From the NCBI GenBank assembly GCA_943736015.1, contig OX031073.1, positions 29,787,210 to 29,851,209 of the forward strand: 64,000 nucleotides of DNA, in the 5' to 3' direction. The notes below the pieces were generated by a model. The model had not been told where the DNA came from. It did no database searches and saw nothing but the letters and a program-made list of their open reading frames with translations. Source of the stretch: Tridacna crocea. Lineage: Eukaryota > Mollusca > Bivalvia > Cardiida > Cardiidae. Below are positions 3,050 to 56,904 of this stretch, piece by piece. Numbering within the stretch: position 1 is the stretch's first letter; each line of letters starts with the position of its first letter. The position numbers and the translations under genes are program-made.

Positions 3050-3540
3050 TATGTCGTGGTCCAAACTGGATCTAGGCAGATCCGGAATCTGCCTAGACCA
3101 AACTAGAATTCAGTCTAGACCAAATAAGATTTCCAGTTTGGCTTAGCAGCTCCACAATCTGCATGGATCAAACTGGAATATTTTCTCGTTGAACATAGTG
3201 CGACTATATATAAACAATCTTACTAAACTTAAATCCCAAAATGAAAGATGAATTTCAAAAATTCAGAGTAAGAATAAATTTTGAATGTTTTGCGCTTTAG
3301 CAAAAAACATGTGGAAAACTGAGCAATTGTGGGAAAGAAAACAAATAAATTGCTTTCATTAAAAATATCTCTAGTTGTAAACATATGTGGTATAATATGA
3401 TTAAAAAAAAAAATAGAAACCATTCTAATTTGGTCTAGAAAAAAAAATGTAATTCTAATTTGGACTAGGCAGATTCCGGATCTGCCTGGGCAGATTCTGG
3501 ATCTGCCTAGATTCCAATCTGGCCTACGATATATGTACCA
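3050..3540. repeat. Family K: inverted CTAG-rich repeat
   Basis: Several copies of GGATCTGCCTAG/CTAGGCAGATCC and TTTGGTCTAGA lie at 3055-3215 and again at 3410-3530, with an AT-rich centre. Confidence 0.6.
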
Positions 3541-3546
3541 TTTCAG

Positions 3547-3747
3547 ACTGCATTGCCCTTTACCACACAATCCCGACTTTAACGACCCTTTGAAAGAAGC
3601 CTTTTGAGAACATTGTTGGAAAAGGAGAAAATGTTGGTTCCCTTTCTAAAACAAATTCCAATCCTTTAGTCACATTTGCTTTAGTCACGTCTGCAAATGC
3701 TTTCAATTTGGACCAGTCTAAAAATTTGTTGTTTGGTAAGAAATTAA
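3547..3747. mobile_element. Family A MITE, one hairpin arm lost
   Basis: CCCTTTACCACACAATCCCG at the left and TTTGTTGTTTGGTAAGAAATTAA at the right. Only the left arm GGAAAAGGAGAAAATG of the hairpin remains. Confidence 0.65.
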
Positions 3748-15929: not shown

Positions 15930-16005
15930 GATGTGAACATCTGAAATAGTATTCCTCCAATTCGTACAGATCGATGCACTCCCCTTTCTCAAATGTCATG
16001 GTCAC
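15930..16005 (-). pseudogene. Decayed tandem copy of terminal exon g
   Basis: Reading minus from 16005, the codons give TMTFEKGECIDLYELEEYYF, which aligns codon for codon with TLTLQKGDYINLYEGEGYSF of exon g. Many changes are conservative (K/K, D/E, N/D, I/I), so it was probably coding once. It has no clear acceptor and no C-terminal half. It could be a remnant of a tandem paralogue or of an alternative last exon. Confidence 0.65.
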
Positions 16006-16201
16006 TTATTTGATATTTTAAGGGCAAAACAACAGAATGCTACGTGTTTATTGCTGTCCGTCCATATATTTTTCATGACAAGACCGCTAGATGTCGCAAT
16101 GTGCTCAAGTTGTTGTTGCGTATATTTGAAACTGTATCCTTCCCCTTCATACAGATTGATGTAGTCTCCCTTCTGTAAAGTCAAGGTCATTCCAAGACCA
16201 G
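16002..16201 (-). CDS. Terminal exon g of the EgtD-like gene
   Basis: The acceptor GGTTCTATTTCAG opens the exon, which encodes residues 262-327 and stops at TGA (16004-16002). It contains LTLQKGDYINLYEGEGYSFKYT, matching EgtD's GExIxTExSxKY with one extra residue between Glu and Ser, then LEHIATSSGL and IWTD, the usual C-terminal helix and strand. A decayed copy of its first third begins right at the stop codon. Confidence 0.88.
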
Positions 16202-19200
16202 CTGAAATAGAACCATGTAGGTAAGGAGTAACAAGTTGATCTTGTGAGGTTGATAACATTTTTAAAATTTCCCAAAGCTGTCAATGGACCTTTCCAATCA
16301 TGATTCAACCGGGTGTTAAAGCGAGACGTTTTTTTTTTTTTTTAATCTGTCATTTTGTTATGACTAGGTTGGGTTTAACTAGAGCTGTCATGGAATGTTA
16401 CTTAATACCCCAGTCCAGCCCTTTGATAGAAAAAAGCGTGATATTCAAAGGGAGTTAATTTCTCAAGCAGGAAGAGTTGACACCTGAAAATTGCGTCTGA
16501 CAAATCTTCAATATATGATCAGTATATGTGCAAAGTCTCAATACAATTGAAGGAAAATTGTAGGAGGAGTTCGTGACACAAAATTACTAGTATTTTGTTC
16601 ACAGACGAAAACAAGAACGGACACCTGGACAGACAGGCCGATTTCAGTATACCGCCGAAAACATTCGTTTTGCGGGGATATTACTAGTAGTATATGGGTT
16701 TCTTTGGAGGCAAACAAAAGATGACGTAAAATTGGATGACCTAGTTACTATAAATAGTAACTCATTTGCATATTAGGATGTTACTATGTTTAGACCAGCG
16801 GACATTTTGGATGACGTATTTTTTAATTTTCAGATCGACGGCTATTTTGAATGATTTCTTTTAGAGACCAGCAGCCATTTTGGATGACTTAATTTTGGCA
16901 GTCATTTAAAATGACGATTTTTTTTATTTTTAGACGACCCTTTTTACTTGGCACTTACATTGATTTTTCTTTCGGTTATAAATTTAGAGAGAAATAGCTT
17001 TAAAAATGAGTCATATAAGTGAGTACCCTAACAGTATACTGAGCTGACGTGTATACTCTGTCTAGTAATGTTCGCAGGCATTAAGGATCAGGCACTTTTA
17101 CAAGATAGAGATTTTCCAACTTAGACTCATCTGTAACGCCTCACCAAGTCAAAGAGCCGATTTATAACCATACTATGACTCTCGGCCAAGTCAGTGAAGG
17201 CGGTCTAACGTCACATCCATCCTAAAAAATAATCCCAAAACAAAGGGTCAGACCTTTTCCTTACCAGACTATAAATAGGGCGAAATGCCCTGGTCAAAGT
17301 CTGACTTTCAAATGAGACCTTAAGTCAAGAACAGAGTCTAAGGTAAAAGGATGCGCATGCATGAAGCTATATTTAGATATGTGATCATCAAATATATTTA
17401 TAGTCATTACATCAGCTCAGTCTATAATAGGGATCCGAAGATCTGAACAATGGTCTATTCTACTCCCCAAGTTAATCCCTTTTAAGTCGCCAGCATGTCT
17501 GGGTTCTATTGATATAAGACCGGATAGCAGAACAATACCTCTTTCAACTGTCAAACTTACTCCATTTTCAAGTTGTCAGCGTGTCTGGTTCATTTCATTT
17601 GAAAACGGAAGTGCGAACAATGGCCTATTCAACTTTCAAAGTTAATCCCCTAACAAAGGATCAGATAGCTGAATAATAATCCTTTGTTACAGTCGCCACA
17701 CTTCCTGAATTTGTTTATTTAGTACCAGAAGTACGGACAATGGCCTATTAAACTGTCAAATATAATCCTCTAACAAAAGACCAAGTGATATAGAGCTCTC
17801 TTGTATACCTGATCAAAGGCATAGTCACAGACATTGACGATCAGGTCCTCAGTTCTCGATGGAAATGAAAAGTAAGTAAAAAGGCAAAAAATGAAAATGA
17901 ATAGTCCACAGGTAAAAGTGTAAAAGTAAAAGCAGTAGAGTAAGTAGAAAAAAAAATAGTCTATGGTAATAAAGAAGAATTAGGTCCAGTATCCATATAT
18001 CATCGATTATGATGCAAAAGTGAAAAATCAGGTCGCCCCCTCCTTTAAAGCAAAAGATTAATTGACTATTAAATGATTGGACATTAACTCCATCCCTTTA
18101 AGATCCATTACCCATTTATCATTGATAATGATACAAAGATAAAAAATCAGGTCGTCCCCCTTTAAAACAAGAAGTTAAACAATTCTACCAAGATTGGACA
18201 TAAACCATCCCGACCCTTTTAAGGTCCAGTACTAATTTATATATATGTATCATTAATTATGATGTAAAAAGGAAAAAAACAAGACCTCCATCCCTTTAGT
18301 AATCAGCACCCATTTATCATTGATTATGATGCCGAGAGTCTTTGTATGGTTAGGAAGGGAATCTTTGACTTAGTGCTGCGTTAAAGATGAAAGGGCGAAC
18401 ATTACTTGATAGAGTATATACTTAAGCTCTGTATACTGTTAGGGTACTCACTTATATGACATATTTTTAAAGCTATTTCACTCTAATTTAATAAAAAATA
18501 AATATTAATGCCAAGAAAGAAGGGGTCGTCAAAATAAAAAGAAAAAATTGTCATCTTTAATGACGGTCAAAATGAAGTCGTCCAAAATTGCTGCTGGTCT
18601 ATAAATAAAAATAATTAAAAATAAACAATATGTCATCCAAAATGTCCTCTGGTCTTCACATAGTAACGTCCTTATATGCAAATGAGTTACTATTTATAGT
18701 AACTAGGTCATCCAATATTACACCATCTTTGTTTACCTCCAAAGTGGCCCCTATACTACTTTAAGTCTTTACCAAAAGACAAAATTTTCAGATTTCTAAA
18801 AAAAAAGAAAGCACTTACACACAACAAAATAAAGGTCCCTAAAAAACTAAAATTTGTTCTGAGCAGGCGGTTACCAGCATTTCCCCCTCCTCCCACCATG
18901 TTTCCAATGGTTTATATATCAGGGCCATGAAAACCAGGTATTTTTTGGTAAAGGATTCATTGATACAATGCATCATATACCATTTTCATGGGAAACATAT
19001 TGCAAAATATAAAATAGAATATGGTAGCACCATTGCAGGTGGCGAAATGTTGATATTTCACTACATATCTTCTGCGAAGTCAATAAAAGTATACAAGCTC
19101 TGTTTTAAGTTGATAACATGTAATTCCATTTTTTTTTTTTCAACAACATGTGAACCAAATTTCGACTGAAACATTCATAACCACTCCTAATACAACCACT

Positions 19201-19214
19201 CCTAATGTTCTTAT

Positions 19215-19275
<61 letters not shown>

Positions 19276-19294
19276 AATCTTCATGTTTTGGTTG

Positions 19295-19331
<37 letters not shown>

Positions 19332-22300
19332 TTAAACACCATAACTAAAAATTAAACAGACTTCAAGACTTCATACATACGTATAGGGCAAATCTGGTTC
19401 CGGGTAGATTTTGCACGTATTAAAACACGGCCTGGTACTGTTCCGTGAATGTCCTTTACAAACTTGCAATCAAGTTCAATGTCGTCAGGATGAATGGTGC
19501 TACCATATTCTTTGTTAAGCCGTTTAAACCCATTTCGATACATTCGTTTGCAAGTACCTAAATGGAAGAACTGATACCTGAATAAAATACTTGAACCATA
19601 CTGTGTGAAAAGGAGGCTTAATGTATCTGCAAAAAAGAATAAACCAGGTCAGCCTGCGCAGTCCGCGCGGGCTTACCTGTTTATACTTTTTTGCTATTGG
19701 TGAAATTTTTGTGTGTCAAAGGACCAGTGTGCCTTATGATTCAGTCAGTTGTTTTACAAAATTTTATTTGTCTATAGTATTGCAAAAAACTTGCTGGTAA
19801 TCTGGGTCACAGAGATACTAATAGCTCCTCCCCCTTTTCTAAAAGCATGACTCGATTTTTACAAAGAGTCCAAGAATTGTAAGCTTAATAAACAATTCCG
19901 TGCATTAATACGTGGATCACTATACCTTAAAGGTGGCTCTTCAGATTTTGGGACGAAAATTGCTCAAAAATACAATTAATCATCCCTATACTCCCAAAGC
20001 CTTTGAATTTTCATTCATAAAACCCCAGTAGTCGAAACTATCCAACAACAAGAGAAAATAGAGATTTACTACGGCCAAGGTCGACACCGACGGAAAACAC
20101 GATCCTTTTTTACATGAGTAACTCGCTCATTTACCTACCGGAAACTGCACAGACAAAGCTTCAAACATGGCGTCCGAAGAAGACATTATGGAAAATAATT
20201 ATATATTTGTTATGTTATGGAATTTAAGCGTCATTAGTCACGTGCTAGTCAATTGACATTTCCACAATCCTTTTTTTTCTTTTTTTAATTTCTGGCGTGA
20301 AATCTAAAAATACTTTAAGAGGCTACGTAAATTTTTTATTTTGTACTTTTTTTATTCTTAATTATTGATGATTTGTATTGTTTTTTCATATAAATTTCAG
20401 TGATATATATTTTTGTCAGTTGGTGAGATGTGAAAAATCTAAATATCCACCTTTAAAACCAGGATTCATCAATTTTTTCGTAACTATCCTCTGAGTTTGA
20501 AAAAATCACGAATTTACTGCAGCAATAAAATCAAGTCATCAACGTATTCATCTCGAGATTAAATATCGAACTCCAATTGTCGAACTTAGTGCCAACTTCA
20601 AACACCCTAGGGAAAGTTGCAAAGTTTGCAAATTTTATATACCTGACTGGTCTAGATAGGCATTTTCTATTTGTCTTTCATCCTGTGTTATATCAACTGT
20701 TAGCAAAACAACATCCTGCTCTGAAATGATAAAAAAGAAACATTATGTAAAAGACATCGCAAGCTTCTTTGAAATGTGTTTCAGTTCGTGCCTTCTCCTT
20801 TTCTTTTCTTAACCTTTGCCAATCGCAACTTGGCTCAGTATAGTTGGTAGGCAGACAGTGTTTATTTCAGATTTTGTAATTTAAACTCTTTATCAAACAA
20901 TCCCTAGTTTTCACGACTCTGTGAAAGAAGCCTTTTGAAAATATTGTGAAAAAAAAAAAAAAGAGAAAATGCTGGTAACCAGTATTTTCTCTTTTTTGCA
21001 CAATGTTTTTCTAACTTTCCTAGAACAAATTTCAATTTTTGAGTCACTAATTTTGTCTTCTGCCAATGTTTTCAATTTGGAACAGTCTAAAATTTTGTCA
21101 TTTGGTAAAGAGTTTAACAACCGCCTTTGCACTTTAAAGCCCGTATTCACCAGTCATAACCACGATAGAAAGATTATTTCTTGATTACTAATATTCTCTA
21201 TCGAGTGACGTCAATCTATATAGGATGACGTCATTCTGTATGAAATAAGTAAGTAAGTAAGTAAGAAATTCAATGGAATAAAATCTGCATCCGCGTTTTT
21301 ACTGTAAGTATGAATTTATTTTCATTTTATTACGAGCTGTCATATTAGACTCGAAATAATCTTCTTTCTATCGTATTTTATCGTTCAATTAACTACGTTG
21401 CGAGTTATGAGGTGCATTGAATAAACCACTCGGGCTATCGCCGTCGTGAATTATTTAATGTTCCTCATAACTCACAACTGCGGTTTATTGAAAGATAAGC
21501 TACGATACAAAAGAAAATAATTCTTTAATTCTAAAATGACACGTGAGTTCGTCTCTAAAAACACAGTGCAACAAAGCGTGTTAAAATTCACGTTCAAACA
21601 TAACACACGAATTCGGCTCTATAAACAGAGTGCAACGAAAGCGTGGTTAAAATCTGCGACATTCCATGCAGAATGACGTCATTCTATATCGAATGACGTC
21701 ATTCTGTACTAAGTAAAGCAAGTGAGTTATTCAATGTAACATAATTTCTATCCGCATTTCTATTTTTGGATTTGTTTTACTTTGATTAAGAGTTTGTAAT
21801 GTTCAAATCGAAATTATCTTCTTTCTATCGTAGTTTATCGTTCATTCTAACATGACACGCGATTTCGGCTCTATAAACACAGCGCAAGGAAAGCAAAGTA
21901 AAATCTGCGACAATCTATGTAGAGTGACGTCATTCTATATCAAGTGACGTCATTCAATGAGTGGGTTATTGCACTGGTGGATTATTCATTGCTCCTCATA
22001 ACTCAAAACGTGGTTTATTGAACGATATACCACGATAGGAAGAAGATTATTTCTTAAATAAATCACGTTGTGAGTTATAAGGCACAATGAATAATCCGCT
22101 TGGGGCGTCACCCTCGTGAATTGATAAGTGTGCCTTATATGGTAATTCACAACTGTGGTTTATTGAAAGGTAAAAAATGTTAGAAAGATTATTTCTTAAT
22201 TATTCTATATAGAGTGACGTCATTCTATATAGGATGACGCAATTCTGTATAGGGTAAGTAAGTAACTTATCAATGGAATATAATCTGCATGGATCGCGTT

Positions 22301-25300
22301 TTTACTCTAAGTATGAACTTTTTTTCATTTCACTAAGAGTTGATCATGCTAGAATAGAAATAATCTTCTTTCTTTCGTAGTTTATCATTCAATAAACCGC
22401 GTTGTGAGCTATGAGGCGCAATAAATAAAGCACTCGGGCTATCGTCCTCATATATTAATTATTTTACCTCATTACTCAGAACTGGGGTTTATTGAACGAT
22501 AAACCACGATAAAAAGAAAATCATTTCTTAAACGTCATTTTTTTGACAGTGTAATAAAACCAATACGAATTGACTTATCTTATACACGTTTGATATCAAA
22601 ATTGTGTTACGTAATTTTTGACGTAACTTCGTAGAAGTTCGCGAACTTTTTCATATTAAATTGGGTGCACCTATGGGTGTTTTTGCATGTTCCGATCTAT
22701 AATTGTGTTGATATATTGGGTGTGATAAAGAATCTGACATTTGTTGACATCTGTGATTCTTTCTTTTTAAACTCGTGAAGAAAAAGTGGTTTTAAGCTTG
22801 CCAAAGGCTCGCTTAACAACATTTTCCCTAGACTTGTTTAATAATATTTTGTCTCAAACGCTAACCCATGTCAGATCATATATGCCTGTAACGTGCGTCA
22901 TACATTAATCCCTATCTCGTAATCTGGAGTTATCACTCATCCTCGGAGAACTTCCTTCCGCCTCACAAGAGGAGACGACGATGTTTAATTAATACTATAA
23001 GTTCACCGAGAAATTCACAGCAAGCAGGGTGCTTATAGACGACCATAAATGTAGGGGAATATTACGCGTGATGTTGTGACTTCAAGGTACTTTTAAGTTA
23101 GCATGAAAGATGTATTTAAGATCCTTTTCATTCAGGTATAATTTATCTCCAAAGAGTATCCAACTAGGTCAGCTCGCGCACTTTAAATTCTTTGCAATTT
23201 CATGGACGATTTCACCTAAGGCTGTTCCTACGAACATGAATGTTTGCAACAAATGCATAGCTGAAATAGAAACCGCATCTGACAGGAAAATATCCTCGGT
23301 TTTTTTTTTGAGGTTTAAAAAAACCAATACCATAACCACTAAGCTAAAGAGATATCTCCCTTACGCATTTGTTAGGTGTTGTATTTTAACTCCGGACGAA
23401 ACCATGCATGAAGGAGTGGTCTCCCGTAACACTGTTCTGTGAATGGATTTTAAGGATCTATAATCATGTGATGACTGGTTTGGTATGGTTCATCAAGGAA
23501 ATGTAGTACATCTGCTTTTGCCAAAACACGGCCCATATGTTATTTATCGTGTAAAGTATTGATATCTTCGAAAGGAAATAATCCCCTAATCTAAAAAAAT
23601 AAAACAGTTTTCCATTTACCTGTCATCGTTTCAGCCATCATCCGTAATCTCTTGAGCTGATTTTCGAAACTCTGGTTTTGGAATCCACCCAACCATAAAA
23701 TGATCTTGCATTGTCTAATATTCCTAAAAATATTAAGTTTTTAGAGTTTAAGGCTTCTAGAAAACAAATATGCAATTTGCTGTAAAACTGTGATTTTGTA
23801 ATCTGCCTGCACAGATATAAGATAATTTTGCTAACTGATTATGTTCTCATGAATTATACTATAAGTTTGTCCTTAGTGAGGTCTCAGAAACAAAACAAAC
23901 TTTATTTTTTAATATTCGCGTAGGCTAAATATTGAATCGAGCAGGATTCCTGTAATTACAAAGTTTTCATAGTGTACCTCTCCTACAAACACTTTCAAAA
24001 GCCTTTGACAGTGTGACGTTCCGACGTTGATTATTTCTTAAGCTTGGAAGACGCCATCAACAATGAAACATTAGAATCATTTGATATTGATCTTGTGCTT
24101 TGCAGGTTCTCACAGACAACTTAAATTGAGTCGTTTTGTTTCTTTAACAAATATAGGATTGCAGTATGCAAGGTTTTCCATTACGTAAGGTTCCCAAGAA
24201 AATCTCTCTTTTTTGTAGTGTACATCTCAGATTTTTATCTAGCCATTATAGAGTTTATTTAGAGAATTTTTTTGAGATTTTGTTCAAATGATAATCATCA
24301 TACAGAGCAATAAAAACAGTTTTTGCTAAAAAAAACTAACCCAGACATCTTACATATAACACTAGATAATATTTTATACCGTTTCTATGGTATTGCCAGC
24401 GACATGCAAAAAAGGGGCATTCGGACATTTGCGTAAAGTGTCGTCTCGTACAGCCTACGCAGTCCCCGCAGGCAAATCCGAGAGGAAACTTTACTACTAC
24501 ATTAGGTTTTGTGCCACAGATGACTCGCGCAAAAGGAAAAATTGCATAGAAACGGAAAGTGTCGTTTCGGAACTGATCCGAGACGACACATTACGCAAAT
24601 GTCCGAATGCCCCTTTCGCGAGTTGCAGGCCATATTGCACAATTGTAAGTGGTATAGAATTAAGCGAAAAACTTATTGAATAACCAGACAGGTAAATCTC
24701 TCATTTAATCAGATAATTCAACAATTAATCATGTGGGTAGCATAATATCAAGCATTCGACGTCCTTTGCGAAAACAAAGACCTTGGACAACCTGCAAGTA
24801 TGGAAAGTCTAATTATGGTATACATTGGTCAAACCAAAAAAGTACTCAAAGCTATGATTGCATCATTTCTACAAACCAAAGATTGGTCTGATGAAATTAA
24901 AGGTCCCTTTGATTATCGAAACATGGTAACAATAAAGGCCAAAAATAAACACAGCGAGTGTTTGAATGCATTTGAATTTATATCGTACCATTCAAAAGTA
25001 TGGAAATTACCGTGAAGATGACAATCTGTCATTAGACGGTCGATCCAAGTATTGGTAGCTGACAGAGATATTAATTTCAAAAATATGTTAAGACCTGCCA
25101 GGTAGCTGTGTCTTTTGTTTACTTTTTTGCTCCATTTTAAAATTCTTTTTCTCTGCTAGTGACTAACAGATGGCCCGACCACATGTTAACAGATTGTCAT
25201 GTCCACGATATCTTCCATAAATGAGATGATTCGATTTGAATTCAAATGTTAGGTGACACTTGCTTTGATATTATGGACTTTACAGGGCCGTTAATGCATC

Positions 25301-28300
25301 GAGTTTGAAATTCAGACATAAAGCCGACAATTGGTTATCTGCGATAAGAAAGAAACTTGAAGTGTCATATCTTGTAGTTGTCGGATATGCTGAAGGACAA
25401 TAAATAAGGTAATTTAGAAATAAAAGACATGAATTAACAGTTTTCTAAGAAAAGATAACATGTAACATACTTCTCTGAAACCATTAGATTAGTTTTTCTA
25501 CATCTTGCATCTTTATGATACACCCCTAAAATTAGGTTACCTACTTTTCTTCCAATCATATTCTATTTTTCCATCAATATTTACAGTTGCATTTTTTCAG
25601 TGTCAATAGGCCTAAAACAAAGCCTGGGGGAGTTTGGGGAAAGTTAAATTTTAAACGCAAGTCAGCTATTCTACAAAATAAAATAGCAAGTTACTGACGC
25701 TCATTGCTTTATCACGGAACACCGAAAGAATCATTGGTCGATCATCGAACACCGTTTCTATAAATAGCACATTGGCACATCGTCTCTTTGTCGTATGCTC
25801 AAATACAAGGCGTGCACCGAAATCTATGAAAACTTTGACCCCCTTGGGATGCGTTAATGTGTGTTGTTGTTTTTTTTTATAAAAAATCAGCGTACCTTGA
25901 TGGAGCAATGGAGCTTTTAAGAGCTGTTCATGGTAAACCTTTTTCATCCTCCCCTGAAACCATTTTCCTGTATCGTCGATTTACTTCGAAACCTCGTAGC
26001 TACAGCTATTTACAAGCTGTAGTTACGAGGTTTTCGAAGTAAACCGACGATAAATGTCTATCGCTTACAAGTGAAACGATGGTTGGTTAAAAAGAACTAT
26101 TCACTTAAAAAAGTATGAGTGAAACCCTACCTGAGATATGAGAGACCTTTGTCGTAATCAGCTGCAAGTACCTGGATATCTAGTTTGTCTTTGTAGTCTT
26201 TCGACAACAAGTCTTGGGCTTTCTGAAGCATTTCTGGAATACAACAAGGTTTTTGTTTGTTTAATCTATTACATAATAGTTTACACTTACCAAAACGTAG
26301 TTGACAATGTTAAACATTTTACTACCTAGTACCAAATGTTTTATACTTTTAATCCTCTGCCTCTTTACCAATACGACAAAATTTTGGACTGCAGCAAAAT
26401 TGAAAGCATTTGGAAAAATCAAGTAAAATTAAGTTCTTTTGATGTCTGTTTTTTACAGGCAAGAAAACGTTATCTCTTTAAAACTGAAAGCCAGGAAAAA
26501 TTACAGCAAGTCATTGGCATGGCGTACTCTTTGTTCTATTGCATAGTTATCTCCCGTTTTACAAATTTCAGCCAGATTCATACACATCTCTAGTGTAATT
26601 TTCCCATTCCCATGGAAACTGTTAAACTGAAAACTGTTGACATAAATAGTTCAAATAGTTCAGACATAGGCATTGTAATTCTTGTCCTCCAAAACCTCCT
26701 TAAAGGTGGGTATTTAGAATTTTTACATCTCACCAAATTAAAAAATATATATATCACTGAAATTCATATGAAAAAATAAGACAAATCATCAATAATTAAG
26801 ATTCATAAAATTACAAAAAAAAAAATTAAAAAAATTTTTGATGGTATTCCCTTAAAAGGCTACGTAGCCTCTTAAGCTATTTTTATATTTCGCGCCAAAC
26901 ATCAATAAAGCATTGTGGGAATGTCAAGTGACTGGCACGTGACTCATAACGCTTAAATTCCCTATCATAACAAACATGTAATAATTATTTTCCATAATGT
27001 CTTCTTCGGACGCTATGTTTGAAGCTTCTTCTGTGTATTCCTGTAAGTAAATGAGCGAACTGACCGTCTAAAAATAGAATGTGTCTCCCGTTGGTGTCAA
27101 CCTGGGCCGTAGTAAATCTCTAATTTCTCGTGTTGTCGGACGGTTTTCGATTACTGGGTTTTTATGAATGAAAATTAAAAGGCTTTGGGAGTATAAGGAT
27201 GATTTTTTTGCACTTTTGTAAAATTTTCGTCCCAAAATCTGAAGGGCCACCTTTAACGCTCATTCTCAGGGAACATTGCAGGAAAAAAGCATGTCGCAGC
27301 CCTCTAAAACGTAAATAAACAGTAATTACGCGGTAATGAATACAATTATTCAACAGGGAGGATAGCCTGTTAGATATAGAAAACTTAAAAATCTGATCCT
27401 ACTGAAATGAGACACAAAATGATGCCTACGTTACCTGTCGCAACAGCAGTTTTTCTATTTCTTGGGGCAAATTCATTACTAGATTTGTTGCAAAGACGGA
27501 CACTATTATTCTTAAATTCGCCAGCAATATCAGTATGTGTTATTTAGCAGATCAACAGTGATGTAAAAAGAACAAAGTAGAGCACCAGTGGATAAATGGT
27601 CTGTCGCCAGATTCCGCGTGCCTACGTTATGCTGTCAGAAATCTTAATCTATTTATGCAATAGATAATTAGATATTTTTTTCACTGCCTAAACATCAGAC
27701 AACACATACTAAGATGATATATGGATTTTCAATCATGTCCTTTGAGTATATTTATATTTGTGCAGTGTTTACATGTATCAAGGAGAATGGTTATAAAAAT
27801 TAAGGATATCTACGTTACATACCATATAGCATTTGTCGGCTTACACATTTACATGCTTTATGTAGTAATTTCAGCCCCTCGTATCTAGGTCATGATTAAG
27901 TTAAATAATTTCTGAATAAATATTTCGACCTATAAATAAACTGATGACATACGTGATGAACACACATACGTTACTCCATTACGTTAACATGGGAGGAGAT
28001 GTGAAACTTTCAGCCACGTCTGACATCATTTTTTTTCTTTGACATCATTGCATTTGTAGTACCTATTGGTAAAAGCAGCATAGCGGCAATAATTGCATTT
28101 GTAAAGTGTACTTTGTTTGGATTTGTTTTTCTTTTACCTGTTATTTAATACCGGGGGCAAGACACTTCGATTTATCCTATTAATCTGATAGGTATCAATT
28201 ATCGAGCTATTTAAACACCTTTTGTTAAATGCTTTTGAATATGTTGACTTCGCCATCAATAGAATGTGACATGGCCTCCGAAATATGCATACCTACTGTA

Positions 28301-31300
28301 CTGGTAGGTAACGTAGATATTAACAAATTTTACTTCACAATGTAATTTCAAATTTTGTTAATTATCGATATTCGGTATTTTAGGTGTAAGTAGGGTGTCT
28401 AGTTCATCACATGAGCTTATATATTTCAAAATCTCACATAGTTTAAACAAAATTTGTGAAGACGCTAGATATGAAATGTCTCTTACAACTTAGAAGTAAG
28501 GACGGACTTTTTTTCAAGGTCTTTTTCGTTTATCTGCCACTCTGTTGATTACTTTAACTTTTGGGAAAAAATATTTTTTGCACGTTAGGTATCACCATCG
28601 AAGTCTCGGTAAAAGATATGAACTAAATTTGCTTTTACAAAAGGGGATGTAGTTATTGCTTTTATTTTTGTGATCTGTGTTCCTCTGGTTTGGTGGGAAA
28701 AGAAGGAGGTGAAATCTATACAGGTCTGTTGAGGACGTAATAACGCAAAGCCCAGCAATGAATATCTACAAAACAAAGGGGGTTATAAATACTTTATTCA
28801 CGGAACTTGAAACGCAAATGAGAGAAATGAGAAAAATACTTGGTGGACGTATGTATGAGAATTAGGACTGGTAAGAGACTATATAAATGGTTTTTGTTCT
28901 AAAGTCAAATGATGCTTTAAAAAAGGAGCTACGACAAATGCAAATAATTTCAGAGAATCAAGAATGAATACTGTTGAGATGCCGAGTCTTGTCATTTCGA
29001 TTGGTATGCATATTGCTTATTCGGTCTGGACATTTATTTGACCACTCGTTATTTATACATGTACTTGAGACATTATCTATATAATTTGATGCTTACATTA
29101 CCATTTCTACGAGTTAAATTATGTGCTTTTGGACTCAAAATCGATAATATTTCATTTCATTTTCAATTTGATTGTTTTAGTACTTTTAGGTATCTGCTTT
29201 AAAGATACTTCAACATTAAATTAAAAATTCAACGGAATATCGTTCGGACAATACCTTGAATTTCGAAGCGAAGAATGAGTCTACAATATCGTCTTAACGG
29301 ACATTTTGCAAAAAGATCTTACGGGGAAAAGATCAGAAAAATACAGGGAAGTTTTCGGCGTTATCGACTTTCTCAGATACTAGAGTCTACTGAACATGAC
29401 AGTGCCTATCGGTCTGAGCGCCTAAACGGTTACAATGGAAACGGCCATTTTACAAAAAATCTAATACGTCAACCTATATTTTTCTTCTAATTTTTCTATT
29501 TACCATTAAATTTTACTGTATATACCAAAAAATTAGAAAATTCTGTGAAAGGAATTTTTCAAAATTTTGAATTAACTGAAGACTACATGTTGCTTTTGCT
29601 TATATTTTGGCAAGTCAAGAAATAGGAAAAATAATTAAAAAGAAATAAATTCAGATTATTATTTCATTTAAACAGAATCAAGAAATATAGTAAATATGAA
29701 AAAAAAAAATATTTGCATTGTATAATAAACTTTCTATCTCTGTATTACTGTCTTTCATGAAGATATAGTCATTTTAAGTGTTTTTATACAAGCGGTTACC
29801 ATAGAAACAGCCATTTTGCAAAAAATCCAATTGGGCAACATACCTTTTTTTTTTTTATTTCTGAGTCTGCCATTGAATTTTACCCAACTTATGAAAGAAT
29901 TAGAAAATTCTATCACAGAATTACATTTTCACAAAACTGTAGAAAACGTCTTTAAGCTTTATTTACCTTCACATATATCAACTGGTACATAGTTTAGCTT
30001 TAATTGGTGTTTCAATAAAACGTCGATAAGCACTCGAGTCTTCCTCGAACTTCCGCTGCCAAGTTCTACCAGTGTGTAGTCACTGCCAAGCTGTGACACT
30101 ACCTCCTGCAAACGGAAATAGATAATTAGATAATATAATTGTGCCATGCTTTATGAAAATAGGTTTCATACAATTGCAAAAAATAATCGATCAAGGTCAG
30201 CCTGCGCAGTCCGCGCAGGCTGACCTTGGTCGAAATATTTTGCAAAGAGTCAATTTTATTTGCATTTCAAGAGCCATTTTAACTCGTGATTGAGCATGTT
30301 GTTAGAGCAAAGTGGATTTCATGAATCTATGTTCTACATGTACGTGTGGCTTGTTGGGTATATCGCATCACGGTGATGTATTTATTTCCCTTTAGCCAGA
30401 GCATGGCTCAAATGTAACAAAAAACACATAGAGTTTATTTCATCAGCTGTGGTTAATATGGGGAAATAATTGCCGAAAAGGGGAAAGATATGTGAAAATA
30501 ACGTTTGCCGTAAGGCAGAAGTTATTTTCGGAGACCTTTCCCTTTTGAAGCAAATATTTCCCCATATTAACCACAAGCTGATGAAATAAATTATATATTA
30601 TATTTCCTCTGATTATTTTGTCAATGAATGCCGCTTTTAAAACTAGTGATTTCAAGTCATTAAACCGGATAACCGATATTTTGTAAAAAAAGATTTTCGG
30701 CAGGAGGAAAATATTCACTGCGACGGGGAAATAATCCCCCCAGCTTAAATTACGACATTTCTTTACCCATAACATTTCTAAAAATAGACACATGTAATAT
30801 AATAAATAGAGGATAATCAACTCGTTATTTTTGATATGAAAAATATCTCACGAGGATGCGTTGTAAGGCGTTGAAAAAAACGAGTACTCAGCACGAGTTT
30901 TTTTTAACGCCTTTCGACACATCCGAGTGAGATTTTTTTCATATCAAAAATAACCAGTTGATTATTATATTTATTATATACCTTATTAACATTATTATTT
31001 TTATTTTTTCGATTGAAAGTCGAAAAAAATGTAGTAAAAAAAAAACGTAGTTCCTAAATTACGAGGAAGTGAAAGTGAAAGCATCCCCAACTTTCAGCTG
31101 CAGGTCGAGCAAGAGTTACTCTCCTTGGAACTTATCGATTATCTGGTCCGAAAGGATTTCCGATAACAGCCTGTCATATAGGATTCAGAAGGAAAAAATT
31201 TTTGATCGACTAAAACACATATTTCTTCTAAAATGATTAAAATCTATAACGTCTTGAAGAATTCTGTAATATCTCTATTTTACTTCAATATAATTTTAAT

Positions 31301-34300: not shown

Positions 34301-37300
34301 CCTCCTTACAACATGTTCTGGTATGTTCTTGGCAGCGCTTGAATACATTATTCTAAGCATGTAATCTCATAGTTATTCATCCACAAATTTCAATTAGTCT
34401 AAGGACTCACTACATCTAGAGGAAGACTTGTCCTTGGACTTGTAGAAAACTCACCGATAGCAAAACTAATATAAGATAGCGGACTGTACAAGCTGACCCG
34501 GGTCAATACTTGCATTAAGCTCACCCTTCACAAAGAATGGCTCGTGTATATGACGCCACTTTGAACAGTGTTTTAGGCTTATCATGGCAATTACTTTTTC
34601 CTTATTTTTTACTGTAATCGCTTCAGTGCATCAGTGTTTTGCCAAAACATCACAGGGTCAGCGTCGCTACTCGGGATTGTACAAGTACTTCCCTATTACA
34701 AATCCGCATGTTTATTCTTTATCAAGCAATGCAGCGATTTAGCGACCCGGGAAACAAGTCTAAGTAAAACGTAGTTGGACACGGAGAAATGCTGCGTACT
34801 AGCACCTTCTTCTTCACCAACAAAAGCCTCCCCCTTCCCCATAACAAATTCCTGCGCGTCTAGTGCAATAGCACAAACGATTAGAGAATTAAATGTGCCA
34901 GACACAGATGCCTCAAAGTCAGATATTGTCTAGCCCTGTAAAAAGGAATGACACTTTAATAAAGGAATCCACTTTCCTTACATTATCTGTGTGCTTACTT
35001 CATTACCCTACTTTAAGAGGAAGTTGTCGCTATTTCCTGTGCGCAATTAGGTCGGTATACTTCCGTCATAGTAGCTTTCAAACGCAAAGTAAATTTTCTA
35101 CTGACTGTTAGTGCAGTACGATTAATTCAATAAATTCAAAAAGAAGCTTTGTAACATTCAAGAGGGATGGAGTAACATAAACTTGGCGTAATAACTTTTT
35201 TTTTATTTTCATCTGAATAAGTGAGTTAACTGTAGTGGAAGAAAACATAGACTCTTTCATTTCGAAGGCTTTTGAAAAAAACAAATTGAAACCAACCCAT
35301 ATGATGCAATTTTCCATAGTTGATCAGTTCTCTAGTATTTTCAATGCCGTTTTCATCGTCGAAACTATGGTCAGCGGTGAAAGAGAAATTGATCCAATGG
35401 AAATAACGATCATCAATCCTCTGAGAGATATTAGTGGAATCGGGATCGAACCAGCACCCTCACCCCATCCCCCCCGGGGGGAGGGTCGCTTGTTCGAATC
35501 CCGGCTCTGCCAATTCAAGACATGTACTGACTGAGCTACCGCGTCTCGGCAAATAAACAAAGATTTTTATCTGACTATCTGATGGAAGTGATATATCGAT
35601 TAATCGCCAAAACCCCATACTTCACATTCATATAATAAAATAGAGGCTACAGTAGTATCAGAAAGCTTTAACTGAGATTCAAAAGGTAGGTGTAAGTGGC
35701 TCCTTTTTTTGTTAAAGACTGACCCTTACTTTCTTAGCTTGTTGGTTGGCAGTTGTAGATTTACACCAAAGTCCGTATTCATCAACCATTTTAAGTTGCA
35801 TTTTTAGTCTAATTCTAATATGATTCAGTAACACAATCATGAATAGGTTAACAAAACCATTCGGTTCAGCCAATTAATTACTGCTTTGCTCTATAATGTT
35901 GAAATTTGAGAATCAAACTCAAAATGATTAGTAAATACGGATGCAGGTTTTAACAATCCGAGTGTTAAGCGCGACTTTATGACCTTTTACGGAGAGGGTA
36001 GATAAAGATCAGACAGGGCAGGACGTGCTGTCTGATCTCTGATTTACACTTTCCGTCAAAGAGATAGTTTTCTCGAGAACTCGAGCTTTTTACTATCGGC
36101 TTGTTTTCTTACGGCATATTCAGCTGGATAAGGGTTAACCCTTTACCACACAATGACGACATTTAACGACCATTGGAATGAAGCCTTTTGAAAACATTGT
36201 GAGAAATAGCAGTGAAAATATTTTTCGATCTTACTCTGGTACCACCAGTGAAAATACCGATTTTTATGTTCTTGTCGCCTAGGTAAATTGCGCGTGCCTG
36301 ACAACCAGATGGGAAATATGACGTCATTTACCTTAGATTTCTCGCGCCTGACGTAATATTGTAATGCGTTGCTATGCTGGAGGGGTACGCCACGGGGAAT
36401 AACGAAAAAGAACTGTACTGGATTTTGATACCGCTCCTCCCAGAAAGGGTTAAAAGAATGAAATAAATTGAATATTTGGGTTTTTTTTTCTCGTGAACAC
36501 CATCAGTAATATTTTCACTCGTGGCTGCGCCACTCGTGAAAATGTTACCGATGGTGTCCACTCGATGAAATAAATTTCGATCTTTCACCGAAAAAAAAAC
36601 CAAATATCCTCTATATATTTTCATCTGATGACCAGCCTGCATAGCTTAGTTGGTAGAGCGTAGGACTCGTAATCATGAGGGTGTGGGTTCTATCCCCACG
36701 GCTGGCCATCTATATTTAGTAATAGTCTTTCGGGTGAGAAGCACTTTGTCCATTTTCCTTGCAGTGAAGAAAAGCAAGAGTGAGCATTATTTCTGGCGAA
36801 ATATGTAAATTAGTCAGATATGGTATAGATAAGGTACCACATTTGTGTTTAATTTTCATCGTTTTTCCAGATTTCTCTAAACTGCTGATCCTAACTAAAT
36901 GAATCGCACCAGGTAGCATTTTATTGAGTAAACGCTTATTTTAGTTTGAAATAATTCAAAGTAACGGTTGTTGCGTAGAAAACTAGTCCGGTTCTGTACC
37001 CAGAATGCCCAAATTAGATAGATGTCAATTTGTAGAATGCCACATAGCGGGATATTATGCCTTTAACCCTTTACCACACGACAAAATTTTAGATCTGCCA
37101 AAATTAAAAGCATTTGTAGATAACAGTTTTAATGCGGTTCATATGAAATGATTTTTCTTTGATAGGGTAGAAAACATTGTGAGAAAAGGAGCAAATGTTG
37201 GTTACCAGCATTTTCTCCTTATCCCATAATGTTTTCAAAAGCCTGCTCTTTCGGGGGGCGTTAAAAGTAGTCTTTGTGTGGTAAAGGGTTAATGGAGAAA

Positions 37301-38499
37301 AAAACGTGCGGATTCAACTAAGAAACGCGTAAGCCGAAATCGATCGGCCGATAGTGCTGGTCCCCGCCTCGATGACAGATTTCCCGAGTCTTAGCCGAAT
37401 CCGCACTATTTTGGTGGTGAAAGGCGGCAATGTTATACGAATATTAAATGAATCCCATTGGGATGCCCTTTCCTTAAAATAAACATGCATACATTTTTAA
37501 CCAATCACAATTTTTTATTTATTCATTTGTTATCAGTACCAAAAAGCAAGCCAAAGCCAGAACATTTAGAGATCTATGTCGAAAAATAACCACTCATTTT
37601 ATACCCTAAGTATAATTATGCTTTAAAGGTGGGTATTTAGAATTTTTACATCTCACCAAATTAAAAAAACATATATATCATTAAAATTTATATGAAAAAA
37701 TAATATAAATCATCAATAAGTAAGACTCATAAAATTACAAAAAAAAAAATTTTTTTTGATGGTGTTCCCTTAAAAGGCTAAGTAGCCTGTAAAGGTATTT
37801 TTAGATTTCCCGCCAAAAATCAATAAAGCATTTTGGGAATGTTAAGTCACTGGCACGTGACTTATAACGCTTAAATTCCATTACATAACAATTATGTAAT
37901 AATTATTTTCCATAATGTCTTCTTCGGACCCTATATTTGAAACTTTGTCTGTGTATTCCTGTATATAAATGACCAAATTGATCATCTAAAAATAGAACGT
38001 GTCTCCCGTTGGTGTCTACCTGGGCCGTAGTAAATCTGTAATTTCTCGTGCTGTCGGATGGTTTTCGACTACTGGGGTTTTATGAATGCAAATTAAAGGG
38101 CTTGGGGAGTATAAGGATGATTTTTTTGCATTTTTTTAGAATTTTCGTCCCAAGATCTGAAGGGCCACCTTTAAGAACTCACTTCATCACTGTCAGTGCG
38201 CCCAATATGACCTTTGATGTCTACGGGCTTTTAGAATTCATTCATTCATTCATTCATTCATTCATTATACTCTATTTGTACATGGAAGAGCACACTAAAA
38301 ATGAACAAGCATACCTCTGCATGGCGTCTAAACACCTCCATCTCCGCTGTTTTAAAGTAGTAGTGTGTGTTACTAGATAGTATCTCCTCAAACAACTCGG
38401 AGCCTTCCTTGTCATAGAGGTACCAGGATGGGATGCACCGTGGACTGGATTGTAGACCTTGTTTAAGGACGGTCGCAGCATTTATACTTTCTGCGTTTT
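16002..38499 (-). CDS. EgtD-like SAM-dependent methyltransferase (histidine-specific methyltransferase family), split gene, 5' exon missing
   Basis: Seven minus-strand exons (38315-38499, 29967-30105, 26131-26233, 23620-23723, 20643-20720, 19381-19557, 16002-16201) join with GT/AG sites and matching phases into 327 residues ending in TGA. In order they show PSWYLYDKEGSELFEEI (residues 23-39), the SAM-binding motif VELGSGSSRKTR (74-85), the acidic VPVDIC (101-106), LAADYDKGL (130-138), ILWLGG (150-155), AYLDQSG (197-203) and a C-terminal SFKYT...IWTD (285-310). Order and total length match single-domain EgtD, about 320 residues; no EgtB/sulfoxide-synthase domain is fused. EgtD trimethylates histidine to hercynine in ergothioneine synthesis, and the fungal relative EasF N-methylates an ergot precursor. 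Here pocket segments differ (YYFKTAE for YYxTRxE, GGFQN for GSxIGN, no GVTAxFN), so the substrate is uncertain. No signal peptide or membrane segment is visible, so the protein is probably cytosolic. The start codon exon lies upstream and was not found. Confidence 0.85.
16686..18760. mobile_element. Foldback-type DNA element with long terminal inverted repeats
   Basis: Left arm 16686 to about 17195 and right arm about 18325-18760 are inverted copies, by eye roughly 75-85% alike. Outer ends read TAGTAGTATA and, inverted, AAGTAGTATA. Shared landmarks are CTCATTTGCATA, the near-palindrome GTTACTATAAATAGTAAC, and further in 'aagtgagtaccctaacagtatac' split across both arms. The interior (about 17200-18320) is a set of diverged tandem repeats of about 110 bp (GTCAGCGTGTCTGGTTC type, then ATCATTGATTATGATGC type). 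No transposase is visible. It lies in the last intron of the methyltransferase gene. Confidence 0.75.
19219..19330. repeat. Two (GA)n microsatellites
   Basis: (GA)n at 19219-19272 and 19298-19330 with a short spacer. On the methyltransferase transcript these are long CU tracts starting about 50 bases after the exon f donor. Confidence 0.92.
19381..19557 (-). CDS. Exon f of the EgtD-like gene
   Basis: The acceptor CCATTTAG and the strong donor ATAC|GTATGT bound 177 bases encoding residues 204-261. FKRLNKEYGSTIHPDDIEL matches EgtD LLxRINRELGGxFDLDxF. The upstream GVTAxFNLN of EgtD reads TCKRMYRNG here. An in-frame readthrough past the donor would stop within about 8 codons. Two (GA)n tracts (pyrimidine on the transcript strand) begin about 50 bases inside the next intron. 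Confidence 0.85.
19600..19760. mobile_element. Family C element
   Basis: GGAGGCTTAATGTATCTGC, then CCAGGTCAGCCTGCGCAGTC and CGCGCGGGCTTACCTG, in the intron between exons e and f. Confidence 0.6.
19927..20456 (-). mobile_element. Family G element, inverted orientation
   Basis: Same landmarks as the copy at 12281 but on the minus strand, with some internal loss around the CTACGTAGCC box. It sits in the intron between exons e and f. Confidence 0.8.
20643..20720 (-). CDS. Exon e of the EgtD-like gene
   Basis: The acceptor TTATCATTTCAG and donor TCAG|GTATAT bound 78 bases in the correct phase on both sides. Residues 178-202 include VVLLTVDITQDERQIENAYL and DQS, matching the EgtD strand LLxGxDLxKDxxxLxxAYxDxxG. 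The AY-D-G core is kept. Confidence 0.85.
20881..21117. mobile_element. Family A MITE, full length
   Basis: TTAAACTCTTTATCAAACAATCC to TTTGGTAAAGAGTTTAA; hairpin arms slightly worn. About 160 bp upstream of exon e, in its intron. Confidence 0.78.
21180..22545. repeat. Diverged tandem array with paired TGACGTCA motifs
   Basis: A unit of about 250-470 bp recurs about four times. Landmarks are GAGTGACGTCATTCTATAT, a TAAGTAAGTAAG stretch, CAATGGAATAAAATCTGCATC, AAATAATCTTCTTTCTATCG and GGTTTATTGAACGATAAACC. TGACGTCA occurs at 21206, 21226, 21674, 21694, 21925, 21945 and 22215, in pairs 20 bp apart. The array lies in the intron between exons d and e. Confidence 0.75.
23326..23433 (-). repeat. tRNA-derived SINE copy
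   Basis: Second copy of the 10875-11021 SINE, without the box B end: CAATACCATAACCACTAAGC and GAAGGAGTGGTCTCCCGTAA. Confidence 0.62.
23620..23723 (-). CDS. Exon d of the EgtD-like gene
   Basis: The acceptor TTTTTAG and donor ACAG|GTAAAT bound 104 bases. Residues 143-176 read NIRQCKIILWLGGFQNQSFE and onward. KIILWLGG corresponds to the EgtD strand RLxLFLGS; the normal S-x-I-G-N that follows reads G-F-Q-N-Q here. The Asn of that segment helps bind the histidine substrate in bacterial EgtD, so the local change bears on specificity. Confidence 0.85.
24395..24640. mobile_element. Family B MITE, full length
   Basis: Ends GGGGCATTCGGACATTTGCG and CGCAAATGTCCGAATGCCCC are perfect inverted repeats. 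Inside are AAAGTGTCGTCTC and GATCCGAGACGACAC. Lies in the intron between exons c and d. Confidence 0.8.
25968..26052. repeat. Family J hairpin beside exon c
   Basis: Near-perfect arms GTCGATTTACTTCGAAACCT and AGGTTTTCGAAGTAAACCGAC around CTACAGCT...AGCTGTAG. It ends about 80 bp past the donor of exon c, inside the intron. Confidence 0.75.
26131..26233 (-). CDS. Exon c of the EgtD-like gene
   Basis: The acceptor TTGTATTCCAG and donor CTCAG|GTAGGG bound 103 bases that encode residues 108-142 with both end codons split. The text MLQKAQDLLSKDYKDKL then VLAADYDKGLSYL matches the EgtD segment between the acidic motif and the ADY.GL strand/helix. Confidence 0.88.
26700..27256 (+). mobile_element. 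Family G element, full length
   Basis: Complete copy from TTAAAGGTGGGTATTTAG to GGGCCACCTTTAA, in intron 2 of the methyltransferase gene and antisense to it. Closest to the copy at 37622. Confidence 0.82.
27260..29420. other. Intron sequence, nothing recognised
   Basis: AT-rich sequence of the 26.2-30 kb intron. Short frames on both strands have no splice sites in phase with the gene and no recognisable motif. Confidence 0.5.
29425..29945 (+). repeat. Two diverged direct repeats of about 150 bp
   Basis: GGTTACAATGGAAACGGCCA at about 29428 and GGTTACCATAGAAACAGCCA at about 29795 each lead into similar AT-rich text with AATTAGAAAATTCT. The second ends just before the exon b donor. Confidence 0.65.
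29967..30105 (-). CDS. Exon b of the EgtD-like gene (SAM-binding motif)
   Basis: The acceptor CCGTTTGCAG and donor GAAG|GTAAAT are both good. The exon encodes residues 62-107 and carries the glycine-rich SAM motif VELGSGSSRKTR followed by NYVPVDIC, where the Asp is expected to hold the SAM ribose. This is the best-conserved part of the gene. It starts in phase 0, matching the end of exon a, and leaves one base for the next exon. The preceding intron is 8.2 kb. Confidence 0.9.
30150..30430. mobile_element. Family C element
   Basis: Long stem ATCAAGGTCAGCCTGCGCAG with CGCAGGCTGACCTTGGTCG, and CATGCTTTATG/AGAGCATGGC near the ends. Starts about 45 bp upstream of exon b. Confidence 0.7.
30430..30600. 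repeat. Large imperfect palindrome
   Basis: GTTTATTTCATCAGCTGTGG...TTAATATGGGGAAATA pairs with TATTTCCCCATATTAACCAC...CAGCTGATGAAATAAA-type sequence; the inner arms include GAAAATAACGT/AGTTATTTTC. Confidence 0.7.
30815..30970. repeat. Large imperfect palindrome
   Basis: ATAATCAACTCGTTATTTTTG...ATATGAAAAATATCTCAC pairs with GTGAGATTTTTTTCATAT...AAAATAACCAGTTGATTAT around AACGAGTACTCAGCACGAG. Confidence 0.7.
31000..33790. other. Intron 1 sequence, mostly unrecognised
   Basis: AT-rich. It contains a short direct repeat (AAATCTATAACGTCTTGAA at about 31240 and 31446) and one family A copy (32157-32372), but no gene. Confidence 0.5.
32157..32372. mobile_element. Family A MITE, diverged
   Basis: CACACTCCCGAATTTCAACG at the left and GGGAAAAGGTTTTAA at the right; worn hairpin around AATATCCAGTACTG. 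Confidence 0.55.
33801..34342 (+). pseudogene. Broken protein-like sequence, family unknown
   Basis: About 180 codons of protein-like text without an open frame. From 33801 one frame runs through VDQIVRPERKTNPTSFGTQ and NPRYPAELF to a stop after 34060. The frame then shifts and continues through GLHNGQITVTGFDLHDKVGH and DIKIYYTGKFQDFTARYI to an in-frame TAA near 34246. It resumes with KAYGQEQELEDYPYDPPYNM and stops near 34340. No ATG start is seen. I do not recognise the family. It sits in intron 1 of the methyltransferase gene, antisense to it, and could be a retroposed or transposon-derived fragment. Confidence 0.45.
35355..35415 (+). repeat. 50-bp motif, copy 1 of 3
   Basis: ATCGTCGAAACTATGGTCAG followed by CGGTGAAAGAGAAATTGATCC; aligned copies are at 38512-38569 (minus) and 44969-45022 (plus). 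Confidence 0.6.
35440..35552 (-). repeat. tRNA-like SINE head
   Basis: The minus strand reads GAGACGCGGTAGCTCAGTCA (box A) and GCCGGGATTCGAACAAGC (box B-like). A second TCGAACC box lies inverted beyond a C/G-rich palindrome. Confidence 0.5.
35765..35945. mobile_element. Family I palindrome, diverged
   Basis: Ends AAGTCCGTATTCATCAACCA and AAATACGGATGC; centre ACCATTCGGTTCAGCCAAT. Confidence 0.5.
35960..36070. repeat. Family D hairpin
   Basis: AGATAAAGATCAGACAGGGC and GCTGTCTGATCTCTGATTTAC pair across a short loop. Confidence 0.65.
36136..36205. mobile_element. Family A half element cut by family F
   Basis: TTAACCCTTTACCACACAATG to GAAAACATTGTGAG, then family F sequence; the right half of A is absent. 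Confidence 0.65.
36206..36613 (-). mobile_element. Family F element, truncated at its outer end
   Basis: Inverted copy from AAATAGCAGTGAAAATA to TTTCACCGAAAAAAAAACC. Its left end joins a broken family A element inside a shared GAGAAA. Confidence 0.72.
36635..36707 (+). tRNA. tRNA-Thr(CGT)-like sequence, probably a pseudo-tRNA or SINE head
   Basis: The D arm GCTTAGTTGGTAGAGC, anticodon loop CTCGTAA (anticodon CGT), T arm GTGGGTTCTATCCCCAC and acceptor 3' strand GGCTGGC are in order with standard spacing. The acceptor stem has mismatches, the anticodon stem has one, and the T loop reads TTCTATC, so it is probably not functional. Similar CGT-bearing sequences lie at 46585-46660 and 47124-47215. 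Confidence 0.5.
37063..37292. mobile_element. Family A MITE, full length
   Basis: TTTAACCCTTTACCACACGAC to GTGTGGTAAAGGGTTAA with an intact hairpin. Confidence 0.82.
37622..38175 (+). mobile_element. Family G element, full length
   Basis: Complete copy from TTTAAAGGTGGGTATTTAG to GGGCCACCTTTAA. It ends about 140 bp from the donor of exon a, in intron 1. Confidence 0.82.
38228..38266. repeat. (ATTC)n microsatellite
   Basis: About eight ATTC units in intron 1, about 50 bp past the exon a donor. Confidence 0.9.
38315..38499 (-). CDS. Exon a of the EgtD-like gene (first recognised)
   Basis: The acceptor TATTTTTTCAG precedes the exon and the donor GAG|GTATGC ends it in phase 0. It encodes residues 1-61: a helical start, then PSWYLYDKEGSELFEEI, the family's signature near the N-terminus, and THYYFKTAEMEVFRRHAE. 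It opens with two bases of a split codon, so a short upstream exon with the start codon must exist. Bacterial EgtD has only about 20-30 residues before this point. Its 3' end and donor are repeated in inverted orientation at 38910-38990. Confidence 0.85.
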
Positions 38500-38511
38500 C
38501 TGAAAAAATAA

Positions 38512-38569
38512 TGGTAGTTATTGCGACAGGATTCATTCTTCTCTCACCGCTCACCATTGTTTCGACGAT
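38512..38569 (-). repeat. 50-bp motif, copy 2 of 3
   Basis: Minus strand: ATCGTCGAAACAATGGTGAG, then CGGTGAGAGAAGAATGAATCC and GTCGCAATAACTA. It ends about a dozen bases before the acceptor of exon a. Confidence 0.65.
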
Positions 38570-38750: not shown

Positions 38751-38909
38751 TCGGTAGAAGAAACTCAGGAAAACGTGGATAGGTGCGATTGCCACCTCGA
38801 TATAACTAGAGCAATGTTGAAAACGGCTTTAAACATCAATAAATCAATCAATCTTTCTAAAAAAAGGGGGGCTGAATTAATCCCTTATCAAACGAATCCA
38901 CAAACAAAC

Positions 38910-38990
38910 TGTCTAGTAACATATACTACTACTTTAAAACAGCGGAGATGGAGGTGTTTAAACGCCATGCAGAGGTATGTTTGTTTTATT
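38910..38990 (+). pseudogene. Inverted partial copy of exon a with its 5' splice site
   Basis: This plus-strand stretch repeats the exon a end from TCTAGTAAC through ACTTTAAAACAGCGGAG and CGCCATGCAGAG|GTATG, about 4 differences in the roughly 60 exonic bases, plus some intron sequence. It lies about 0.6 kb from the exon in opposite orientation and starts abruptly inside the exon. Confidence 0.85.
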
Positions 38991-52850: not shown

Positions 52851-52984
52851 TCATATTCGTACAAGCAATATCTAGAACAATTCTGTGTAAGACTAAGATT
52901 TTTTAAAGAATTGCTAGTAAAAATGGATCTAGAAATTAATAAGAAATCCTGGCTCTCTGTCAGAAGGTCATTTATAGAATAGTA

Positions 52985-53260
52985 TACAGCATTTTCTCCT
53001 TTTCACACAATATTTCCTACCTTTCGAAACTCTTTACAAAACGAACAAAAATTTTAGACTTGTTCAAACTGGAAGCACTTGCAGGCGACGAAATAAACGC
53101 AACTCAAAAATCAAAATTTCTTTCTAGCAGGGCAGAAAAAATTGTGAGAAAAAGAGAAAATTGTGATTGCCAGCATTTTCTCCTTTTCTCACAATATTTT
53201 CACAAGGCTTCTGTAGATCTCAGGGTCGTAAAAACCCGGTATTGTTTTGTAAAGGGTCAA
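52985..53260. mobile_element. Family A MITE, diverged
   Basis: CTCTTTACAAAACGAACAAA to TGTTTTGTAAAGGGTCAA; hairpin tip TGTGATTGCCAGCA. Confidence 0.68.
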
Positions 53261-54944: not shown

Positions 54945-55170
54945 GCTTTTCTTCCTACCACCCCACAACATTTTTTACTTCTCCAAATTTGAAGTATTTA
55001 CAGGCGACAACTTTGACGTAGCTCAAATAACAGAATTCGTCCTTGAAAGGGTAGAAAACATAATAGGAAAATCAGAAAAAAGCCAATTTTCAGAATTTTC
55101 TGTTTGTCCCACATTATTTTCGAACGTTTTCTATCGCATGGTCGTTGAAACTCGGGATTGTTTGGTAAAG
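54945..55170. mobile_element. Family A MITE, diverged
   Basis: CTTCTCCAAATTTGAAGTATTTACAGG at the left and GGGATTGTTTGGTAAAGGTTCAA at the right. Confidence 0.55.
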
Positions 55171-56757: not shown

Positions 56758-56904
56758 AGATTGGATTTTTACCACGCATGGCAGGGGCTTCATTTTCACT
56801 TCATGCACAAACAGCAGGTGGGAGATAGTCTCAGACGGACGAAATAATATTCTCTAGACGATGTAATTTTAAATTACAAAGAGTTCATCCACTTTAACCC
56901 CAGG

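Follow-up and report, generated by a model that had tools for sequence, protein, structure and literature searches.

The window analysed here is a 64,000-nucleotide stretch of contig C18 (40.2 Mb) in the 1.05 Gb, 31-contig assembly of Tridacna crocea. It carries a gene of the EgtD methyltransferase family in seven minus-strand exons, which run from 38499 down to 16002 and join into a product of 327 residues followed by TAA (Table 1). All six introns are GT..AG and the phases agree at every join, which bears out the first-pass annotation of seven exons joining in phase as one intact gene; the motifs quoted there also proved correct when the joined product was read again. The same model was sound in its exons and joins but, starting at 38499 (exon 1 at 38499-38315), it had no start codon. 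The frame of exon 1 is open upstream as far as 38722, and an ATG in the same frame at 38557, preceded by ACA and followed by G, would extend the product to 347 residues and give it an N-terminus similar in length to those of the bacterial relatives. Judged from the sequence, this ATG is likelier to be the start than the other options, while a separate upstream first exon is possible, with an acceptor-like TTATTTTTTCAG immediately before 38499.

Table 1. Coordinates of the gene and of other features (positions in the window unless a contig or locus is named).
Feature	Position	Strand	Content
Exon 1	38315..38557	-	Proposed start ATG 38557 (MVSGERRMNPVAITT...), alternative ATG 38536; donor GTATGC; Tyr39, Phe47 and Tyr56 equivalents; PF10017 exon match 5.8e-9
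Exon 2	29967..30105	-	AdoMet motif I VELGSGSSRKTR and VPVDIC; PF10017 exon match 9.1e-7
Exon 3	26131..26233	-	EMLQKAQDLLSKDYKDKLDIQVLAADYDKGLSYL
Exon 4	23620..23723	-	IILWLGGFQN; loop one residue shorter, Gly165 to Gln, Asn166 kept
Exon 5	20643..20720	-	Tyr206 equivalent (AYLDQS)
Exon 6	19381..19557	-	TCKRMYRN; Thr213 to Cys, Phe216 to Met; donor GTATGT
Exon 7 and stop codon	16002..16201	-	NLYEGEGYSFKY; four residues inserted at Glu282, Ser284 kept
Exon-7-like copy	16005-15928	-	Diverged copy of exon 7 start, directly past the stop codon
Inverted exon-1 fragment	38908-38985	+	Copy of exon 1 end and donor, 78 nt, reads LSSNIYYYFKTAEMEVFKRHAE
tRNA-Thr (predicted)	36635-36707	+	Anticodon cgt; in the first intron of the gene, opposite strand
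Recurring-peptide frame	3232-3645	-	Peptide like GKGENAGYQHFLLFPQCF
Recurring-peptide frame	52943-53335	+	Same peptide
Recurring-peptide frame	54868-55263	+	Same peptide
Recurring-peptide frame	55715-56137	+	Same peptide
Recurring-peptide frame	56877-57251	-	Same peptide
Gene matching OvoA C-terminal methyltransferase model	contig C3, 29275591-29281042		78, 77 and 50 bits
Bacterium HR10 gene row	locus L010, 574-3930		Consecutive EgtB-like, glycosyltransferase-like and EgtD frames; functions read by eye

Family membership and copy number

The profile search that the first-pass annotation had proposed for the 327-residue product confirmed its place in Pfam PF10017 (Methyltransf_33), with an E value of 7.9e-64 and 216 bits against a cut-off of 23; residues 11-320 lie on model positions 5-302 of 304. 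In the PDB search EgtD chains matched at E 7e-26, and all six solved EgtD sequences were the top matches. Chance similarity is excluded by these two E values, and bacterial contamination is ruled out because the gene has seven exons and sits on a contig of 40 Mb.

The best-scoring NCBIfam model is the EgtD equivalog TIGR03438, at 188.7 and 188.4 bits. This falls short of the cut-off of 290.9, which 8 of 8 bacterial controls pass with 293.6 to 402.8 bits, so that the clam protein belongs to the EgtD family but falls outside its equivalog group. EasF is a relative of EgtD that acts on a prenylated tryptophan. Its family model TIGR03439 matches along most of the length of the clam protein, but at 138.9 and 139.6 bits the match is weaker than that to EgtD and below the cut-off of 205.55; the comparison is with a profile model, which separates poorly, with one of the eight bacterial controls also above its cut-off. 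Mollusc database entries named 'histidine N-alpha-methyltransferase-like' probably exist; the open-licence literature, judged by titles and the beginnings of abstracts, showed no work on an EgtD-like protein from an animal. Compared with EgtD (TIGR03438; PDB 4uy6, 4pim, 7scf), the clam protein has the family in common from end to end and is alike in the AdoMet motif and the head-group contacts, whereas it differs in scoring below the equivalog cut-off, in altered Thr213, Phe216, Gly165 and Glu282 segment, and in not lying beside EgtB. To the C-terminal methyltransferase domain of OvoA the likeness would be the AdoMet-dependent methylation of a thiohistidine; that domain is described as methylating the imidazole ring (PMC9890322), and no such family was matched by the clam protein.

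Eight matches came from a protein search of the whole genome: seven are the exons of the gene and the eighth is an inverted piece of exon 1. A family-profile search found two exons of the gene and no further match; these searches score the best candidates only, and a very divergent second copy could escape them. A paralogue or pseudogene set was rejected on the same eight matches. The inverted fragment is 94% complementary to 38304-38381, and the whole-genome protein search found no other exons of a second gene copy. The exon-7-like copy past the stop codon (26 residues, 46% identical, E 3e-4) includes the inserted segment of that exon (DLYELEEYYF) and would represent either an old partial tandem duplication or a lost alternative last exon.

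Kept and changed residues of the substrate pocket

The clam protein was aligned with 145 distinct bacterial homologues, which are those most similar to the query and were chosen by motif or rank, not at random. They derive from 158 loci: 7 came from 50 plasmid records, 80 were the best of 578 confirmed stretches picked by two motifs, 11 were further loci, and 30 each came from 128 positive genomes among 395 and from 68 positive genomes among 299. Three low-scoring members with no query match at E 1e-3 (L106, L107, L108) were dropped, which left 155 loci and 145 distinct rows. The comparison collections cover prokaryotes, phages, plasmids and viruses. In a quick tree of the bacterial rows and the clam protein (SH-aLRT only), the clam branch has a length of 3.36 and lies near the base of the sampled tree without support. 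No bacterial donor is claimed; L010, L011 and L014 also branch near the base, likewise without support. The closest bacterial relative among the best rows listed is from Bacterium HR10 (36%; locus L010). Among viral contigs no relatives were confirmed with the alignment (30 pattern stretches) or with the protein (13 stretches).

In EgtD, Tyr56, Tyr206 and Ser284 are reported to bind the carboxylate of histidine and Asn166 its amine; Tyr39 is in contact with the alpha carbon, a water facing the imidazole is placed by Thr213, and Phe47 and Thr163 contact ligands (contacts as given in PMC8593015). Besides motif I, the clam protein keeps Tyr39, Phe47, Tyr56, Gly161, Asn166 and Tyr206, each present in 145 of 145 bacteria, and Ser284 (143 of 145). 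Three positions that are identical in all 145 bacterial rows are changed: Thr213 to Cys, Phe216 to Met and Gly165 to Gln. Met252 is replaced by Ile, the bacteria having 130 Met and 4 Ile at this position. Ahead of Asn166 the loop has one residue fewer (GGFQN for GSxIGN), and four residues are inserted at Glu282, an insertion present in none of the 145 bacteria; a single extra residue had been described for this TExSxKY segment, and the alignments correct it to four. The residue opposite Glu282 differs between alignments, being Tyr279 with the set of 145 and Gly283 in two other runs. The numbering was verified against PDB chain positions as far as Met252, those of Glu282 and Ser284 were assigned by the E-x-S motif, and the pocket roles rest on alignment, not structure.

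The head-group residues for carboxylate, amine and alpha carbon are thus those of EgtD (Tyr39, Tyr56, Asn166, Tyr206, Ser284), and the imidazole site, meaning Thr213 and its surroundings, is not. The first-pass statement that the segments lining the pocket differ from EgtD holds for Thr213, Phe216, Gly165 and the Glu282 segment, but the reported carboxylate and amine contacts of histidine are kept. The Lys-Arg pair at positions 214 and 215 had been considered as a sign of an acidic substrate; this is weak, since both positions vary in bacteria (215 without restriction, 214 with Arg in 8 of 145).

Forty-eight columns are near-invariant in the first set of 87 bacterial rows (one residue in at least 85), and the clam protein keeps 29 and changes 19 of them, whereas no bacterial row changes more than 7 when the same columns are counted leave-one-out. 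Many of the 19 lie outside the pocket. The protein is thus divergent along its whole length, and its pocket may have changed simply as one part of a general drift; the kept head group set against the changed side-chain site is suggestive, not statistical.

OvoA, EgtB and the candidate substrates

Nine exon matches to OvoA were found on contig C4, covering model positions 36-443 of 444. As single exons none of them is above the cut-off alone, and two of the nine have stops in the matched stretch. One holds HERIHLE, which fits HX3HXE, described as an iron motif (PMC4768315). The EgtB model gave four matches in the genome: one is OvoA on C4, and the two on C7 and the one on C17 are FGE/SUMF-type sequence as read by eye. 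No EgtB was recognised in the genome, and outside OvoA no match extended over the iron-binding N-terminal part of EgtB. EgtB is probably absent, with the limit that it has the FGE/SUMF-type domain in common with these matches.

The EgtD-family gene on C18 and OvoA on C4 are not linked. An EgtD-like frame was found in the 1.5 kb flanks of bacterial OvoA at 0 of 25 loci examined (L181-L205; 25 of 30 fetched, 23 over the cut-off, the flank on one side including the rest of OvoA); as a positive control, the profile finds all 158 EgtD-type loci. A search with the C-terminal model did not locate the C-terminal half of OvoA in the genome, and matched on C3, not C4. The C3 gene may be another methyltransferase, because the model also matches in 14 of 14 control genomes, or perhaps another histidine methyltransferase.

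We consider it probable, at roughly 60%, that the product of the clam gene is a functional EgtD-family alpha-N-methyltransferase that uses AdoMet, in which the side-chain pocket and the Gly161-Asn166 loop have been rebuilt, and which for that reason would probably not simply convert histidine to hercynine. The family, the gene model, the single copy found, the OvoA matches and the kept and changed positions were computed directly; from them we infer catalysis, a changed specificity or methyl number, and the substrate. Since the head-group contacts and the AdoMet site are kept, the enzyme would bind a free alpha-amino acid by its carboxylate and amine, in the manner of EgtD, and would transfer methyl groups from AdoMet to the alpha nitrogen of that amino acid. 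The altered side-chain site makes plain histidine less likely, and the altered loop could change the number of methyls added. The likeliest substrate, itself only a tentative choice, would be a histidine of the ovothiol pathway: downstream of OvoA this would be ovothiol A or 5-thiohistidine, and upstream of it histidine, which would receive one or two methyls before OvoA acts. The view of an EgtD-type gene with an altered pocket stands in that the gene is intact, positions identical in 145 of 145 bacteria are changed and the equivalog cut-off is failed where 8 of 8 controls pass, and is narrowed by the kept head group.

Ovothiols are antioxidants of marine eggs; on the enzyme side, OvoA and OvoB are known. 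The alpha amino group is described as carrying no methyl in ovothiol A, one in B and two in C, and a 2020 source describes the methyltransferase that ovothiol B requires as 'still uncharacterized' (PMC7551349). Ovothiol B has been reported from the scallop Chlamys hastata (PMC9890322) and from mussels (PMC7175103). Tentatively, the clam gene could be the missing animal ovothiol alpha-N-methyltransferase, an EgtD-type enzyme unpaired from EgtB and retuned to add one or two rather than three methyls to a thiolated or not-yet-thiolated histidine: it would make ovothiol B or C from ovothiol A or a precursor, or mono-methylate histidine for OvoA. In favour of this are the OvoA exons in the same genome, including HERIHLE, the matching of the EgtB model to OvoA and FGE/SUMF-like exons only, and the change in the loop between Gly161 and Asn166, a region reported as critical for successive methylation (PMC9103826). 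A diatom OvoA has been suggested to accept mono-methyl histidine (PMC9890322), which would also require an EgtD-like enzyme that stops early. The lack of linkage to OvoA in the clam and at the bacterial loci argues against it, as do the stops in two of the nine OvoA exon matches and the proposal that the C-terminal domain of OvoA itself makes the other ovothiol forms (PMC7175103). Should this hold, animals would have joined one half each of two microbial thiohistidine pathways; the clam gene, the single EgtD-family copy found in a genome with OvoA, is a concrete candidate for the ovothiol B/C step.

It is rather doubtful, though conceivable, that another amino acid such as tryptophan or tyrosine is methylated, the protein being then a betaine or N-methyl amino acid synthase. 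Kept head-group contacts with a changed side-chain site would fit such a role, as would the EasF model match at 139 bits, though below cut-off, and EgtD structures are reported to bear on specificity including that for tryptophan (PMC9103826). The pocket offers no specific signature for such a substrate, and Lys/Arg at 214 and 215 are no guide. An enzyme of this kind would be a new N-methyl amino acid enzyme of animals.

That the gene encodes an ordinary histidine trimethylase which makes hercynine and tolerates its sequence drift seems unlikely. EgtD is its top model and the solved EgtD sequences are its top PDB matches, phosphorylation of Thr213 is reported not to have abolished ergothioneine formation and OvoA to be able to use hercynine with cysteine (both PMC9103826); Thr213 may not be needed for histidine methylation. 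Against this, the equivalog cut-off is missed by about 100 bits, Thr213, Phe216, Gly165 and the Glu282 segment are changed, no EgtB was recognised in the genome, and animals are said not to make ergothioneine (PMC7653990). If hercynine is made nevertheless, the claim that animals make no ergothioneine-type betaines needs a second look.

A non-catalytic relative, as the first-pass annotation had also allowed, or a decaying gene is improbable: the long branch, the 19 of 48 changed near-invariant columns and the broken exon fragments nearby point that way, but no stop or frame break occurs over seven exons with all splice sites in place, and the kept AdoMet motif I and reported head-group contacts weaken the non-catalytic reading.

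Other features of the window

The first intron of the gene holds a predicted tRNA-Thr on the opposite strand. Eight other long frames of the window matched no Pfam family. Five frames (Table 1) share a recurring peptide, and such frames, found in the window, at locus L150 and on contig C7, are by their recurrence judged to be a dispersed repeat.
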